From an uncultured Flavobacteriales bacterium (GTDB lineage Bacteria > Bacteroidota > Bacteroidia > Flavobacteriales_D > Crocinitomicaceae): a DNA stretch of 38,069 nucleotides. Below the pieces are notes generated by a model, which saw nothing but the letters and a program-made list of their open reading frames with translations, made no database searches and was not told where the DNA came from. The DNA lies in the NCBI GenBank assembly GCA_903945495.1, contig CAJAVU010000059.1, forward strand, positions 65,091-103,159, written 5' to 3'. This document shows positions 27,715-37,652 of the stretch, piece after piece (position 1 is the first letter of the stretch; each line of letters opens with the position of its first letter). The position numbers and the translations under genes are program-made.

Positions 27715-30009
<2,295 letters not shown>

Positions 30010-32550: not shown

Positions 32551-33231
32551 ATGCAATCATTTTTTCAGAACATAAAATTACCAATCAACGAAAAGCTTTT
32601 TTTGAAAGATCCCCAGTCTTCCGAGATAGGTAACAAAATTTTAAATGAAAGTATCGAACTCATTAATGAAATGGGATTTGAGAAATTCACGTTTAAAAAA
32701 TTAGCCACAAAGATTTCCACAACAGAGGCATCCATTTATAGATATTTTGAAAGTAAGCACAAACTTCTGTTGTATTTGATCAATTGGTATTGGAGCTGTA
32801 TCGCAACGCGTATGTTGTTTGAGACAAGCAATATTGAGGATCCAATTTTATGTTTAAAGAAAGCGATTCATATTCTTACTGCATTGCCTAATCCACAAGC
32901 TGAACAAGTTTTAGCCAATGAGATTTTCTTGAAAGAAATTGTCATCAACGAAGCTTGGAAGGCGTTTTTAACAAAGGAAATAGATAGTGAAAACAAAGAT
33001 GGAGTTTTTAGTGTTTACAAGTCCGTTGTGAATAATGTTGTTCAAATGATCCAAACAATAAATCCAAATTATCTGTATCCAAATATGTTGGTCACAACAG
33101 TTATTGAAGGAAGCAATCAGCAGCGATTCTTCGGTCAACATCTACCCAAATTAACAAATTCGAGCTCCGAAGTTGATTTCGTAGAGCAATTTTATCAAGA
33201 CATGATTTTTAAAGCAATTCAACATGGTTAA
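32551..33231 (+). CDS. TetR/AcrR-family regulator of the export operon
   Basis: This 226-aa protein has a TetR DNA-binding domain at about residues 22-75: ILNESIELINEMGFEKFTFK, then KLATKISTTEASIYRYFESK with the recognition helix. The C-terminal part (about 80-226) is helical and should bind a ligand and form the dimer. It is the first gene of an operon with the ABC, HlyD and TolC genes and overlaps the ABC start by 8 bp. The palindromic half-sites at its own promoter fit autorepression released by an inducer. The ligand is unknown. Confidence 0.88.
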   Translation: MQSFFQNIKLPINEKLFLKDPQSSEIGNKILNESIELINEMGFEKFTFKKLATKISTTEASIYRYFESKHKLLLYLINWYWSCIATRMLFETSNIEDPILCLKKAIHILTALPNPQAEQVLANEIFLKEIVINEAWKAFLTKEIDSENKDGVFSVYKSVVNNVVQMIQTINPNYLYPNMLVTTVIEGSNQQRFFGQHLPKLTNSSSEVDFVEQFYQDMIFKAIQHG

Positions 33232-34912
33232 TCAAACAACATCAGTTTTTAGTCGCTTCATCGGTTTATTGAAACCCGATTATAAGGAAATCAAGAATAT
33301 TTACATTTTCGCTGTTTTTAGTGGAATACTGTCATTGGGCTTACCACTTGGAATTCAAATGATTATCAACTTTATTCAAGTTGGACAAGTTAGTACGTCT
33401 TGGATTATTTTGGTTCTATTAGTAGTTGGTGCAATCGGTTTCTCTGGTTTATTGAATATTTATCAGATGAAAATTACGGAGAACTTGCAACAACGCGTTT
33501 TTACACGAGCAGCTTTTGAATTTGCAGGTCGAATTCCGCAAATGAAATTGTTGGAAATGTTGAAGTTAAACGCGAATGAATTGACCAATCGCTTTTTTGA
33601 TACCTTGACCATTCAAAAAGGAATTTCGAAATTATTGATTGATTTCACAGCAGCAACATTACAAGTATTGTTCGGACTAATTCTATTGTCGTTTTATCAT
33701 AGCTTTTTCATTTTTATCGGTCTTTTCCTTGTGGTTTTATTGTATGTGATTGTTCGACTAACAGCTAAAAAAGGTTTTCAGTCGAGCTTGAAAGAATCAT
33801 CTTACAAATACAAAATTGCGAATTGGCTGCATGACGTTTCTCGTGCTCGTTTAAGTTTCAAAATGGCGTCAAAAGAACGCTTGCACATGGATACAACAAA
33901 TAAACATTTACATGATTATTTAGGGGCTCGTGACACACATTTCACGGTTTTAATGCAGCAATATTCATTTCTAATTGCATTTAAGATTTTAATTGCTTTG
34001 ACACTACTAATTGTTGGAGGATTTTTGGTCATCAACCAGCAAATGAACATTGGTCAATTCGTTGCTTCTGAAATTATTATTCTACTTGTGCTTTCTTCTG
34101 TTGAGAAATTGATTTTAAGTTTGGATGTTATATACGACGTATTCACGGCAATCGAAAAAATTGGACAAGTAACAGATCTTCCCTTAGAGGTTCATGATGG
34201 CGAAATTTTGGAAAATCAAACTGAAACGGGTATGTGTATTTCGATTAGAGATTTAAGTTTTAAATCACATTACTCACCTAAGAAATTGTTAGATCATTTA
34301 ACAGTTGAAATTCAAGCGAATCAAACGGTTTGTCTTGTGTCAGATTCGAGTTCTTCGAATGCAGCTTTGTTCTATTTATTAACTGGGATTTGTGACAATG
34401 CAAAAGGTTCCATTTCTTTTGATAAAGTGCCTCAAGCGAATTTAAATTCATTTGAGTTGCGCGAACAAATCGGGACCGTTTTCGAACATGATTATTTAAT
34501 AAATGCCACTATTTTTGAAAACATTCAGTTCGGTAGAAAAGATGTCAGCTTGAAGCAGGTTGTAGCACTTGCGGAAGAAATTGGTTTAAGCGAATTCGTT
34601 AATTCTCTGCCAGAAAAGTATTCTACACCAATTGACAGTGAGGGACATTTTATTCCAAGAGATGTTGTCGTGAAAATTCTGTTACTGCGTTCGATTGTAA
34701 AACAGCCGCGTTTATTATTGTTAGATGAACCAACGGCAGGATTAACTAATGTTCAAAAACAGCAAATTCTTGAAAAATTGAATTCTTTAAAAGGTGTAAC
34801 ACGCATTTTCGCGAGTAATGATCCTGAAATACACAAAATTTCGGAGAGTTTAATTTATATCGAAAACGGCAAACCGCGCATAGAAGGAACGAATCAACAA
34901 ACTTTAAACTAG
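33224..34912 (+). CDS. ABC exporter subunit with degenerate nucleotide-binding domain
   Basis: This 562-aa protein has a type I exporter membrane domain (about 20-310, with five or six hydrophobic segments) and a C-terminal ABC domain (about 335-555). Normal motifs are altered. The Walker A position reads SDSSSSNAA (373-381), so K is N379. The Q-loop glutamine is E421. The LSGGQ position reads IPRDV (477-481). The H-loop histidine is N532. Walker B remains intact (LLLLDEPTAGL, D501 and E502). A homodimer is therefore unlikely to hydrolyse ATP in the usual way. The frame is open and flanking strands are conserved, so this is not a frameshift. It overlaps the TetR gene by 8 bp and is followed 8 bp later by the HlyD-like gene. 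Confidence 0.88.
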   Translation: MVNQTTSVFSRFIGLLKPDYKEIKNIYIFAVFSGILSLGLPLGIQMIINFIQVGQVSTSWIILVLLVVGAIGFSGLLNIYQMKITENLQQRVFTRAAFEFAGRIPQMKLLEMLKLNANELTNRFFDTLTIQKGISKLLIDFTAATLQVLFGLILLSFYHSFFIFIGLFLVVLLYVIVRLTAKKGFQSSLKESSYKYKIANWLHDVSRARLSFKMASKERLHMDTTNKHLHDYLGARDTHFTVLMQQYSFLIAFKILIALTLLIVGGFLVINQQMNIGQFVASEIIILLVLSSVEKLILSLDVIYDVFTAIEKIGQVTDLPLEVHDGEILENQTETGMCISIRDLSFKSHYSPKKLLDHLTVEIQANQTVCLVSDSSSSNAALFYLLTGICDNAKGSISFDKVPQANLNSFELREQIGTVFEHDYLINATIFENIQFGRKDVSLKQVVALAEEIGLSEFVNSLPEKYSTPIDSEGHFIPRDVVVKILLLRSIVKQPRLLLLDEPTAGLTNVQKQQILEKLNSLKGVTRIFASNDPEIHKISESLIYIENGKPRIEGTNQQTLN

Positions 34913-34920
34913 TCAATCGG

Positions 34921-36267
34921 ATGTTAAATTTATCGCCAAATAATAAGAGCAGTTTTAGTTTAAAAAACTTGACAGCAATAAATCGAGTAGAAAGTAAAAG
35001 CACTTCAAAAAAGATCAAACGTACAATGTATGCGTTATTGATTATTCTTTTGATTATTCTTTTTCTTCCTTGGACACAGAATATTCAGTCAACGGGAAAG
35101 GTTTCTACTTTACGCCCTGAGCAAAAACCTCAAACAATAAATACAGTTATATCTGGAAAAGTTGAAAAATGGTTCGTAAAAGATGGTGATCGCGTAAAAA
35201 AGGGAGACACAATATTGTACATCTCTGAGATTAAGGATGAATATTTTGATCCGAATTTAATTGGAAGAACCGAGCAACAATTGAAAAACAAGGAACTTTC
35301 TGTGGTGTCGTATTCCGATAAAATTAGAAATTTGGATGTACGCGTTGATGCCTTGATTGATCAAGGTAGATTAAAATTACAACAGGCTAAATTAAAGCTA
35401 ACTCAAACTCAATTGAAATATAAGACGGATAGCATTGAATTTCACACAGCTGAATTGAACTTGAAAATTGCTGATGATCAATACCATCGTTTTGAAAAAT
35501 TGGTCAAAGACGGTTATAAGTCTCAAACAGAATTAGAAACACGTAAACTGACCTTGCAGCGAACACAAGCAAATGTGGTAGCAACACAGCAAAAAATGCT
35601 ACAGAGTCGAAACGATATTTTAGACGCAAGAGTGGAGTTGAGCGCAATAGAATCAAAATTCAGGGATGAAGTCTCTAAAGCTGAATCAGATAAATTCACG
35701 GCACTTTCAAGTATGTATGATGCAGAAGTGGATGTAACAAAGTTGCAAGGAAAAGTGGCAAATTATTCGATTCGAAACGGAATGTATTATGTATTGGCTC
35801 CTCAAGATGGGATTGTGACGAAAGTACTTTCGAGTGGTATTGGTGAAACAATCAAACAAGGTCAACCAATTGCGACAATTATGCCTTCAGTGTATGATCT
35901 TGTGGTAGAAATGTATGTGAAACCGGTTGATTTGCCAATCATCAGTGTTGGAAATAAAGTGCGCATTCAATTTGACGGATGGCCAGCAATTGTCTTTTCG
36001 GGTTGGCCGAATTCGAGCTTTGGAACATTCGAAGGTGAAGTATTTGCAGTGGATAATTTTGCTGATGAACAAGGAAACTTCCGTGTATTAATTTCTCCTG
36101 ATAAAAAAGGAAAACCTTGGCCAGATGCATTGCGTGTTGGCGGTGGCGCAAATGCAATGATTTTGTTAAAAGATGTTCCAATTGGATATGAACTTTGGAG
36201 ACTGATCAACGGTTTTCCACCTCAGTTTTATAAACAAAAAACGTCAACTAAAAAAGCTGAGAAATGA
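34921..36267 (+). CDS. HlyD-family periplasmic adaptor
   Basis: This 448-aa protein has a cytoplasmic N-terminus of about 35 residues and one membrane helix (about 36-52). The first lipoyl half is at about 73-95 (VISGKVEKWFVKDGDRVKKG). A long coiled coil covers about 105-265, and the second lipoyl half follows (VLAPQDGIVTKVLSSGIGET). Beta-barrel and membrane-proximal domains close the protein (IRIQFDGWPAIVFSGWP). This is the adaptor that links an inner-membrane exporter to a TolC channel. It looks intact. It overlaps the TolC-like gene by 4 bp (ATGA). Confidence 0.88.
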   Translation: MLNLSPNNKSSFSLKNLTAINRVESKSTSKKIKRTMYALLIILLIILFLPWTQNIQSTGKVSTLRPEQKPQTINTVISGKVEKWFVKDGDRVKKGDTILYISEIKDEYFDPNLIGRTEQQLKNKELSVVSYSDKIRNLDVRVDALIDQGRLKLQQAKLKLTQTQLKYKTDSIEFHTAELNLKIADDQYHRFEKLVKDGYKSQTELETRKLTLQRTQANVVATQQKMLQSRNDILDARVELSAIESKFRDEVSKAESDKFTALSSMYDAEVDVTKLQGKVANYSIRNGMYYVLAPQDGIVTKVLSSGIGETIKQGQPIATIMPSVYDLVVEMYVKPVDLPIISVGNKVRIQFDGWPAIVFSGWPNSSFGTFEGEVFAVDNFADEQGNFRVLISPDKKGKPWPDALRVGGGANAMILLKDVPIGYELWRLINGFPPQFYKQKTSTKKAEK

Positions 36268-37652
36268 TAAGAATAATTGCACTAGTGTTCTTAAGTTCAT
36301 TCTTGAACTATGCATATGGACAGACTACATTTTCAGATCAGCGATTTTATGAGTTGGTTGTTAACAATCACCCTTTAGCGAAACAAGCGAATTTAAAACC
36401 TGCTTATGGAAAGTACAGTGTTCTAAAAGCAAAAGGAGGATTTGATCCGAAACTTGAGAATCAAATCAACCAGAAGTATTATAATTCTTCAAATTATTAC
36501 AGTTTTTTAAATGCAGGATTAAAAATTCCTACGTGGTACGGAATTGAAGTTAAAACGGGATTTGAATCCAATGATGGAACGTATTTGAGTCCGCAGGACA
36601 AAACGCCGGCAGGTGGTTTATGGTATGGAGGTGTTTCTGTAAATCTTGGTGAAGGCTTGTTTATTGACCAACGAAGAGCTGAATTGTTTAAAGCTAGAAT
36701 TTACCAAAATAGTACCATGTTTGAGCAACGTTTGCAGCTGAATGAATTGCTTTATGAAGCTGGATATGCTTATTGGAATTGGGTTTTAGCATATCATTCG
36801 ATGGAAATCATGCAGGAATCGTATCAATTGGCTAATGAGCGCTATGAAGGTATTCGAAGAACAGCTGAAGTTGGAGATCGCCCAGGAATTGATAGTGTAG
36901 AAGCAATTATTCAAGTGCAAAGCAGAGAGACCTTGTTGCTGAATTATGCAACAGACTTTAAAAACAATGGGTATAATCTTTCAACATTTCTTTGGACGGA
37001 AAATTTAGAGCCCTTGGAATTGGATAACGCGACAGTTCCAGTTTCTCTTGATTCGCTGAATCTTGAATCGGCTTTATTGATTGCTGAAAACACCATGGAT
37101 TCAATTGTTACGAATCATCCATATTTGAAGATGAATGATTTTAAAATTCAAAGTTTGGAAGTCGATAATCGCTTAAAACGTGAACAATTAAAACCTGAAT
37201 TGGCTTTACAATACAATTTTTTGAATGAACCCCTAAATTATAACCCGTTCAATGATTTTTCAATCAATAATTATAAATGGGGTTTAACCTTTGAAATGCC
37301 GATTTTTCTCAGAAAAGAAAGGGGAGACGTGGCGCTTTCGAATCTGAAAATTCAAGACGAGAAGTTTAATTTACAAAACAATCAAGCATATATCGAATAC
37401 AAAATTCGTAAAGCAATGGCCGATTACAGCAACGGTTTAGCGCAGATTTCGATTTATCAAAAAACAGTTGATGACTCTGGGAAATTGTTAGAAGCGGAAA
37501 AGCAAATGTTTGAAGCGGGTGAAAGTTCCCTGTTTTTAATCAATCAACGTGAATTGGCGTTTATCCAAGCACGTTTGAAATTGATTGAAAGTCAGGTGAA
37601 ATTGCAACAGGCAAAATTATCATTGAGTTATGCCGCTGCGGGATTGTATTAA
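36264..37652 (+). CDS. TolC-like outer-membrane efflux channel
   Basis: This 462-aa protein has a signal peptide (MIRIIALVFLSSFLNYAYGQ). It matches the outer-membrane efflux protein family: long helices with the two-fold repeated pattern (LNELLYEAGYAYWNWVLAYH, then YQLANERYEGIRRTAEVGD in the first half and KTVDDSGKLLEAEKQMFEAG, SSLFLINQRELAFIQARLKL in the second) and short barrel strands between. It should be the outer-membrane duct for the ABC/HlyD-like proteins encoded just upstream. It converges on the LysR gene with overlapping stops. Confidence 0.88.
   Translation: MIRIIALVFLSSFLNYAYGQTTFSDQRFYELVVNNHPLAKQANLKPAYGKYSVLKAKGGFDPKLENQINQKYYNSSNYYSFLNAGLKIPTWYGIEVKTGFESNDGTYLSPQDKTPAGGLWYGGVSVNLGEGLFIDQRRAELFKARIYQNSTMFEQRLQLNELLYEAGYAYWNWVLAYHSMEIMQESYQLANERYEGIRRTAEVGDRPGIDSVEAIIQVQSRETLLLNYATDFKNNGYNLSTFLWTENLEPLELDNATVPVSLDSLNLESALLIAENTMDSIVTNHPYLKMNDFKIQSLEVDNRLKREQLKPELALQYNFLNEPLNYNPFNDFSINNYKWGLTFEMPIFLRKERGDVALSNLKIQDEKFNLQNNQAYIEYKIRKAMADYSNGLAQISIYQKTVDDSGKLLEAEKQMFEAGESSLFLINQRELAFIQARLKLIESQVKLQQAKLSLSYAAAGLY

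Follow-up and report, generated by a model that had tools for sequence, protein, structure and literature searches.

The exporter gene and its operon

The window, that is, the whole analysed stretch of 38,069 nucleotides, contains an operon in which an ABC-exporter-like gene is accompanied by genes for a TetR-family regulator, an HlyD-family adaptor and a TolC-family channel (Table 1). The operon is intact. The TetR, HlyD and TolC products all match their Pfam models above the cut-off, the end of the TetR gene overlaps the start of the exporter gene by 8 nt, the exporter and HlyD genes are separated by 8 nt, and the HlyD and TolC genes overlap by 4 nt. The exporter gene begins with ATG and encodes 562 amino acids, consisting of an ABC exporter membrane domain (TMD) and a degenerate ATPase domain (NBD). 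It is present as a single copy in the genome, in which the next best ABC match reaches only 7e-23, and the genome also encodes five ordinary ABC exporters. One of these five (G000:C57; L006/L252) has LDDC at Walker B, with Asp for the catalytic Glu, and its other motifs are intact. Upstream of the operon, at 27718-30009 of the window, lies a gene whose product has a signal-peptide-like start and which we take to encode a KatG-like catalase-peroxidase.

Table 1. Features of the operon and positions of the motif and candidate residues of the exporter-like protein (positions in the window).
Feature	Position	Strand	Remark
TetR-family regulator, operon gene 1	32551..33231	+	Pfam TetR_N 39.2 bits
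ABC-exporter-like protein	33224..34912	+	TMD ~residues 8-325; degenerate NBD ~336-562
E283 codon, TM6, family-specific carboxylate, candidate for ion coupling	34070..34072	+	Glu in 182/183
Former Walker A loop, SDSSSSNAA, residues 373-381	34340..34366	+	N379 codon at 34358
Former Q-loop position, E421	34484..34486	+	Gln in 8/168 NBD-bearing family members
Former LSGGQ signature, IPRDV, residues 477-481	34652..34666	+	Ser 69/168, second Gly 37/168
Walker B pair D501-E502 (Asp, catalytic Glu), still intact	34724..34729	+	Asp 40/168, Glu 35/168; replaced in most relatives
Former H-loop His, N532	34817..34819	+	His in 19/168
HlyD-family periplasmic adaptor	34921..36267	+	Pfam HlyD_3 44.8 bits
TolC-family outer-membrane channel	36264..37652	+	Pfam OEP 122 bits

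The NBD of the window protein is still matched by the Pfam model ABC_tran (38.4 bits, cut-off 25), and its TMD scores 25.2 bits with ABC_membrane, under the cut-off of 28. Ten relatives were scanned with the latter model; seven scored above the cut-off (30.2-50.3), two below it (22.1 and 21.9), and one gave no match. The NCBIfam models of type 1 secretion exporters span residues 12-561, the closest being type_I_sec_LssB with 133.8 bits against a cut-off of 693, and the operon supplies the HlyD adaptor and TolC channel expected of a type I secretion ABC exporter. Among solved structures, the best E-values were those of P-glycoproteins (~1e-48, in two stretches), and matches over nearly the whole protein were obtained with PCAT1 (residues 5-524), ComA (12-557) and TM287 (57-561); HlyB matched residues 222-560.

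In order to locate the ATPase motifs, we aligned the window protein to the ordinary ABC exporters of the same genome. Among Walker A, Q-loop, LSGGQ, Walker B and H-loop, only the Asp-Glu pair of Walker B is kept. The original prediction, made from the letters alone, had listed these substitutions with their codons, and every one of them proved exact when the codons were verified. It had also held that such a domain would not be expected to hydrolyze ATP in the conventional way, a view with which the lost motifs agree. The nearest relative (L042/L013, 89% identity) has the same SDSSSSNAA, E-H-D and N532, and P-K-D-V takes the place of P-R-D-V. At Walker B, the window protein shares Asp with its five closest relatives, in contrast to the Glu of the neighbouring clades. 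Judged from the tree, the Asp would appear to be a reversion, one unaccompanied by the other ATPase motifs.

Loss of the ATPase motifs and of the NBD in the family

Of 399 genomes sampled from the order, 184 contained a relative of the window protein at E <= 1e-60. When a less derived member was used as the query (E <= 1e-50), matches came from 195 of the 395 genomes sampled for the class and from 76 of the 296 sampled for the phylum, the samples overlapping. Among the named relatives are Persicobacter, Aureibacter, Riemerella and a Crocinitomicaceae MAG (89% identity). We collected 102 neighbourhoods, of which 89 were of at least 9 kb and the shortest was 3.4 kb, and clustered a filtered set of 845 ORFs. 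The merged ABC/TMD-HlyD cluster was present in 101 of the neighbourhoods, a TolC homologue in 98, and a TetR homologue in at least 50. Within this filtered set, no gene cluster outside the operon occurred in more than 4 of the 102 neighbourhoods, and no recurring substrate gene was found beside the operon. At two loci (L086:2564-2950 and L053:1729-2130), a thioesterase-superfamily gene stands between the HlyD and TolC genes (Pfam 4HBT, 49.1 and 57.3 bits); its cluster occurs in 3 of the 102 neighbourhoods, and its position may hint at a fatty-acid-like substrate.

Then 183 family members, 168 of them NBD-bearing, were aligned with 13 ordinary ABC exporters as controls, and seven motif features were scored. 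The window protein itself (L001), L042 (identical to L013) and four genes cut by contig ends (L147, L191, L193 and L212) were dropped before counting. The rows consist of best matches and hand-picked places, and the numbers of NBD-bearing (168), TMD-only (9) and fused (6) members are not population frequencies. None of the 168 NBD-bearing members had all seven canonical features, compared with 12 of the 13 controls. Walker A was kept in 122 of the 168. In the clade of the window protein, none of the 31 members had the Walker A pattern or the Lys belonging to it, and a moderately conserved S-D-S-S-type stretch occupied the site instead. The best-preserved members were 13 sequences from other classes of the phylum (L157-L169), which kept 4 to 6 of the 7 features; the Q-loop Gln was absent from all 13. 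Homologues in the same synteny with a full set of normal motifs, a kind of counter-evidence named beforehand, did not appear among the 168 NBD-bearing members.

We initially read L157-L169 as early branches, a placement that the trees did not support. The direction of change therefore rests on homology to ordinary ABC exporters, and the trees give no resolved sequence of the motif and NBD losses. These results indicate that the NBD motifs were lost repeatedly, to differing degrees, across the family. The motif loss is thus a recurrent, family-wide state rather than an error or a peculiarity of the window protein alone.

We next compared the rates of evolution of the two domains. Between the window gene and its 89% relative (L042/L013), the dN value was 0.128 for the NBD and 0.033 for the TMD, with synonymous sites near saturation, and the dN/dS value of the NBD was 0.067. 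In further close pairs, the NBD dN/dS was ~0.02-0.14 where it was computable. These values indicate selection that keeps the NBD despite its lost motifs, so the domain still has some use. The original prediction had regarded the gene as maintained, and had proposed that homologues be examined for the same substitutions and for a dN/dS well below 1; the low ratio, the substitutions common to the 89% relative and the family-wide pattern all bear it out. The ratio of NBD dN to TMD dN was 3.9 for the window gene against L042, and 0.33-3.2 for the five ordinary exporters of this genome against G342, in which the copy of the window protein (L013) is identical to that of L042. The contrast in this single pair is not exceptional compared with ordinary exporters, and the argument therefore rests on the family-wide comparison of identities. 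Of 14,028 family pairs, 13,787 were more similar (by identity) in the TMD than in the NBD, as against 1 of 78 control pairs, which are mixed paralogues and not orthologues. Within the clade of the window protein this held for all 465 pairs (69% vs 38.5%), and among the 13 motif-rich members for 50 of 78 pairs.

In nine genomes the family gene encodes a TMD only (L148-L151, L221-L224 and L231), with stop-to-stop frames of 334-361 codons, and stands directly before the HlyD and TolC genes. One of these genomes (G680) is a single contig of 7.0 Mb. A further apparent gene of this kind, in G637 (L147), was rejected, being cut by a contig end. In two of the NBD-less matches (G772 and G562), stops within the match lie where the match overruns the end or the start of the open frame, and the open frames were counted. 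In six other genomes the TMD is fused to HlyD in a single frame of 749-784 amino acids, which is followed by TolC. The HlyD parts of the six fusions are 44-50% identical to the HlyD of the window or to its L051 homologue. Two fusions were scanned with Pfam; HlyD_3 was above the cut-off in both, and ABC_membrane gave 30.2 and 22.1 bits (cut-off 28). A TetR gene is the divergent neighbour of five of the six fusion genes and lies beside two of the nine TMD-only genes. In the tree, the TMD-only forms make up a single clade, next to which stands L179 with its dead NBD (support 99), and the six fusions make up another (support 100), whose placement among its neighbours lacks resolution. Thus, one clade consists of proteins without an NBD, and in a second the TMD and HlyD form a single protein.

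Five of the six fusions have shortened loops, namely 36 residues against 40 after TM2 and 30-33 against 38 after TM4. Judging from the topology of ABC exporters, these are the places where the helices that dock the NBD would lie. The TMD-only forms have loops of full length (40 residues after TM2 and 38-41 after TM4), and the argument from the coupling loops is therefore limited to the fusions. Long members (L160, L161, L152, L155 and L190) carry an N-terminal extension of ~130-260 residues in their stop-to-stop frames, which the clade of the window protein lacks. No Pfam domain was found in the extensions of these five scanned members, and a C39-like domain at this place is a conjecture.

Conserved membrane residues and the proposed energy source

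The TMD carries several charged residues that distinguish the family from ordinary exporters. Glu at position 283 is replaced in a single one of the aligned members (L165, Gln); it is absent from all 13 canonical exporters and present in 3 of 3 further named Bacteroidota sequences. Lys at 132, 195 and 312 was found each time in 183 of 183 members and in none of the 13 controls. Four acidic residues (E86, E283, E294 and D305) are conserved in at least 95% of the 183 members and would be candidates for a glutamate ladder; the two AlphaFold models examined (mean pLDDT 55.6 and 49.9) were too poor to place E283. Among the 13 members with the most ATPase motifs, 12 have E283. The exception, L165, has six of the seven ATPase features, and the four other members with six features all have E283. 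It follows that E283 did not arise with the loss of the NBD. That members with nearly complete ATPases have it points to an ancestor that may already have been ion-coupled, the ATPase becoming dispensable afterwards.

Family genes were also found on plasmids of Croceicoccus, Novosphingobium and Sphingobium, where they precede HlyD-like and TolC genes. K132, K195 and E283 are present in all five sphingomonad sequences, and K312 is replaced by Glu. Four of the five are NBD-bearing, and in none of these four were Walker A, the Asp of Walker B or the His of the H-loop present. In a mixture-model tree of the TMD, four sphingomonad sequences grouped with the motif-rich members (support 99), in a quick search with SH-aLRT values only and with a composition warning raised for three of them. 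Because of this grouping, the motor seems to have died independently in the sphingomonads. On two of the plasmids (L264 and L266), the family gene has no annotation and is followed downstream by a gene annotated as an IS3 transposase. L266 is the one sequence of the five outside the NBD-bearing four, and its open frame has 478 amino acids only. On the Sphingobium plasmid pHAL16, a DUF2309 gene, presumably DabA-like, lies immediately upstream of the operon with the dead-NBD exporter (L263:1362-3914).

There are precedents for a membrane domain of this fold working without its motor. According to PMC13316013, SbmA has no NBD, is driven by protons through a ladder of glutamates, and is regarded as a descendant of an ABC transporter whose NBDs and coupling helices were lost. 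MsbA deprived of its NBD can still transport drugs with a pH gradient as the driving force, less effectively than whole MsbA, whose efflux needed ATP hydrolysis (PMC4979069). As for the partner protein, PMC11026475 gives three HlyB dimers to six HlyD, a ratio that makes a 1:1 fusion of TMD and HlyD sterically sensible. It places the main contacts between HlyB and HlyD in the N-terminal CLD of HlyB, and the absence of a CLD from the window protein counts against the analogy.

Taken comprehensively, it is most likely that the TMD, HlyD and TolC carry out export without ATP hydrolysis by an NBD of their own, and the export probably runs on the proton gradient, by analogy with the above precedents; we infer both the energy source and the substrate. 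We suggest that a dimer of the TMD alternates its access and passes the substrate to the conduit of HlyD and TolC. The cycle would be powered by the proton gradient through the conserved membrane carboxylates, E283 being the first candidate, and in the window protein the dead NBD may be retained as a structural clamp on the TMD. On balance, we lean towards this reading, namely that these are tripartite exporters of ABC descent with a proton-driven TMD dimer and no remaining reliance on ATP hydrolysis by their own NBD. The frequent retention of Walker A in the family counts against an ATP-free reading, since many members may still bind ATP, and so does the low dN/dS of the NBD, by which the domain is still of some use.

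The strongest rival is a gated or passive conduit, in which the TMD serves as the assembly platform and selective gate for HlyD and TolC, no primary energy is spent because the substrate follows its own gradient out, and any NBD that is present acts as a brace or as a sensor of nucleotides. A sensor would need just the Walker A that so many members keep, every ATPase feature and then the entire domain could be lost, and the shortened loops of the fusions suggest a relaxed coupling to the cytoplasm. Such a conduit is, however, unlikely in our view, given that the strong conservation of the TMD and the invariant charges (K132, K195, K312 and E283) look like those of an active cycle, and that the precedents of SbmA and truncated MsbA are proton-driven. 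Gene decay or an error of sequencing or assembly would also produce lost motifs, and the gene of G637 did prove to be a contig end. This explanation can practically be dismissed, because a diverged relative has the same substitutions, the dN/dS is far below 1, the frame of 562 amino acids is open, and the pattern extends over the family.

Two further explanations would supply the ATPase from elsewhere in the genome. A separate soluble ATPase docking on the TMD in trans recalls the split TMD and NBD genes reported for YddA relatives in PMC13316013, and the TMD-only forms do retain loops of full length. We consider it improbable, however, given that no gene cluster outside the operon recurs in more than 4 of the 102 neighbourhoods. 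Proteins with an NBD other than the family member were seen at 4 of the 102 loci, namely L076 (Opp-like, with two NBDs), L163 (UvrA by Pfam), L183 and L221; those of L183 and L221 have no TMD in the available stretch, and that of L221 is cut by the locus end. Only L221, with its NBD protein ~1.3 kb past TolC, belongs to the 15 NBD-less loci. Moreover, in the loop that follows TM4, just 1 of the 9 TMD-only forms and none of the 6 fusions keep F212, and K213 is replaced by Arg in all 9 TMD-only forms. Slightly more doubtful still is a heterodimer of the degenerate protein with a catalytic ABC half-exporter encoded elsewhere. Heterodimers with one degenerate site are known from TmrAB and TM287/288 (PMC8277102), and the five ordinary ABC exporters of this genome could be regarded as candidates. 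Against it, no second ABC exporter gene was found beside the operon in a local search of the 102 neighbourhoods, and a composite site could not be completed by the NBD-less and fused forms, which bring no NBD of their own. Among the roles listed in the original prediction, another energy source or a scaffold fits the data, whereas the family-wide motif loss, the NBD-less and fused relatives and the local search of the 102 loci made the heterodimer unlikely.

Extending the proton-driven reading to the whole family, we tentatively propose a widespread class in which an ABC exporter turned into a secondary, proton-driven transporter. Its motor would have decayed in several lineages and been deleted in two clades, in one of them with a fusion to HlyD that would make a two-protein, ATP-free conduit from the cytoplasm or inner membrane to the outside. 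We give this wider proposal slightly less than an even chance.

Relation to known systems

Type 1 secretion exporters (HlyB-HlyD-TolC, PCAT1 and ComA) have the same architecture of TMD and NBD, with HlyD and TolC in one operon. In contrast to them, the present family has lost ATPase motifs, includes relatives that are NBD-less or fused to HlyD, and has no recurring substrate gene by the operon. In heterodimeric ABC exporters (TmrAB, TM287/288 and BmrCD), which share non-canonical ATPase motifs with the window protein, the gene of the catalytic partner is usually adjacent. Here no adjacent partner gene was found at the 102 loci, and nearly all motifs of the window protein are lost, not those of one composite site.

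The proton-driven peptide importers SbmA/BacA (SLiPT) consist of an ABC-exporter TMD without NBD and coupling helices and have conserved membrane glutamates, as described in PMC13316013. The window protein differs from them in having a degenerate NBD, and the family in having a tripartite operon with HlyD and TolC and in the survival of dead-NBD members beside the TMD-only relatives and the fusions, which have none. With HlyD and TolC in the operon, export is expected, unlike the import by SbmA/BacA. The Pfam model SbmA_BacA matched neither the window protein (at E <= 0.001) nor any of 10 relatives (at E <= 0.01). We infer an origin separate from that of SbmA/BacA. Secondary SecA_DEAD/HlyD modules (PMC4452313) have type 1 secretion-like HlyD and OEP components without a normal ABC motor, as here. 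Unlike the present family, those loci are described there as lacking an ABC homologue, and the loci of the family have no recurring extra gene.

The fold, the tripartite plan and the loss of the NBD, for which SbmA is the precedent, are known. In a literature search that did not extend to preprints or to the majority of subscription journals, no description of this family was found. An exporter family in which states of motor loss survive together with a fusion of TMD and HlyD thus appears to be undescribed.

ABC exporters are taught as ATP machines. SbmA and truncated MsbA show that protons can drive the membrane domain. In the present family, living genomes contain forms with a nearly complete ATPase, a dead one, none at all, and a TMD fused to HlyD, so that the transition is open to direct study. 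Furthermore, two of the three annotated family records examined, from Bacteroidota and sphingomonads, bear the name 'ABC transporter ATP-binding protein', and our findings suggest that many Bacteroidota genes of this name do not encode ATPases.
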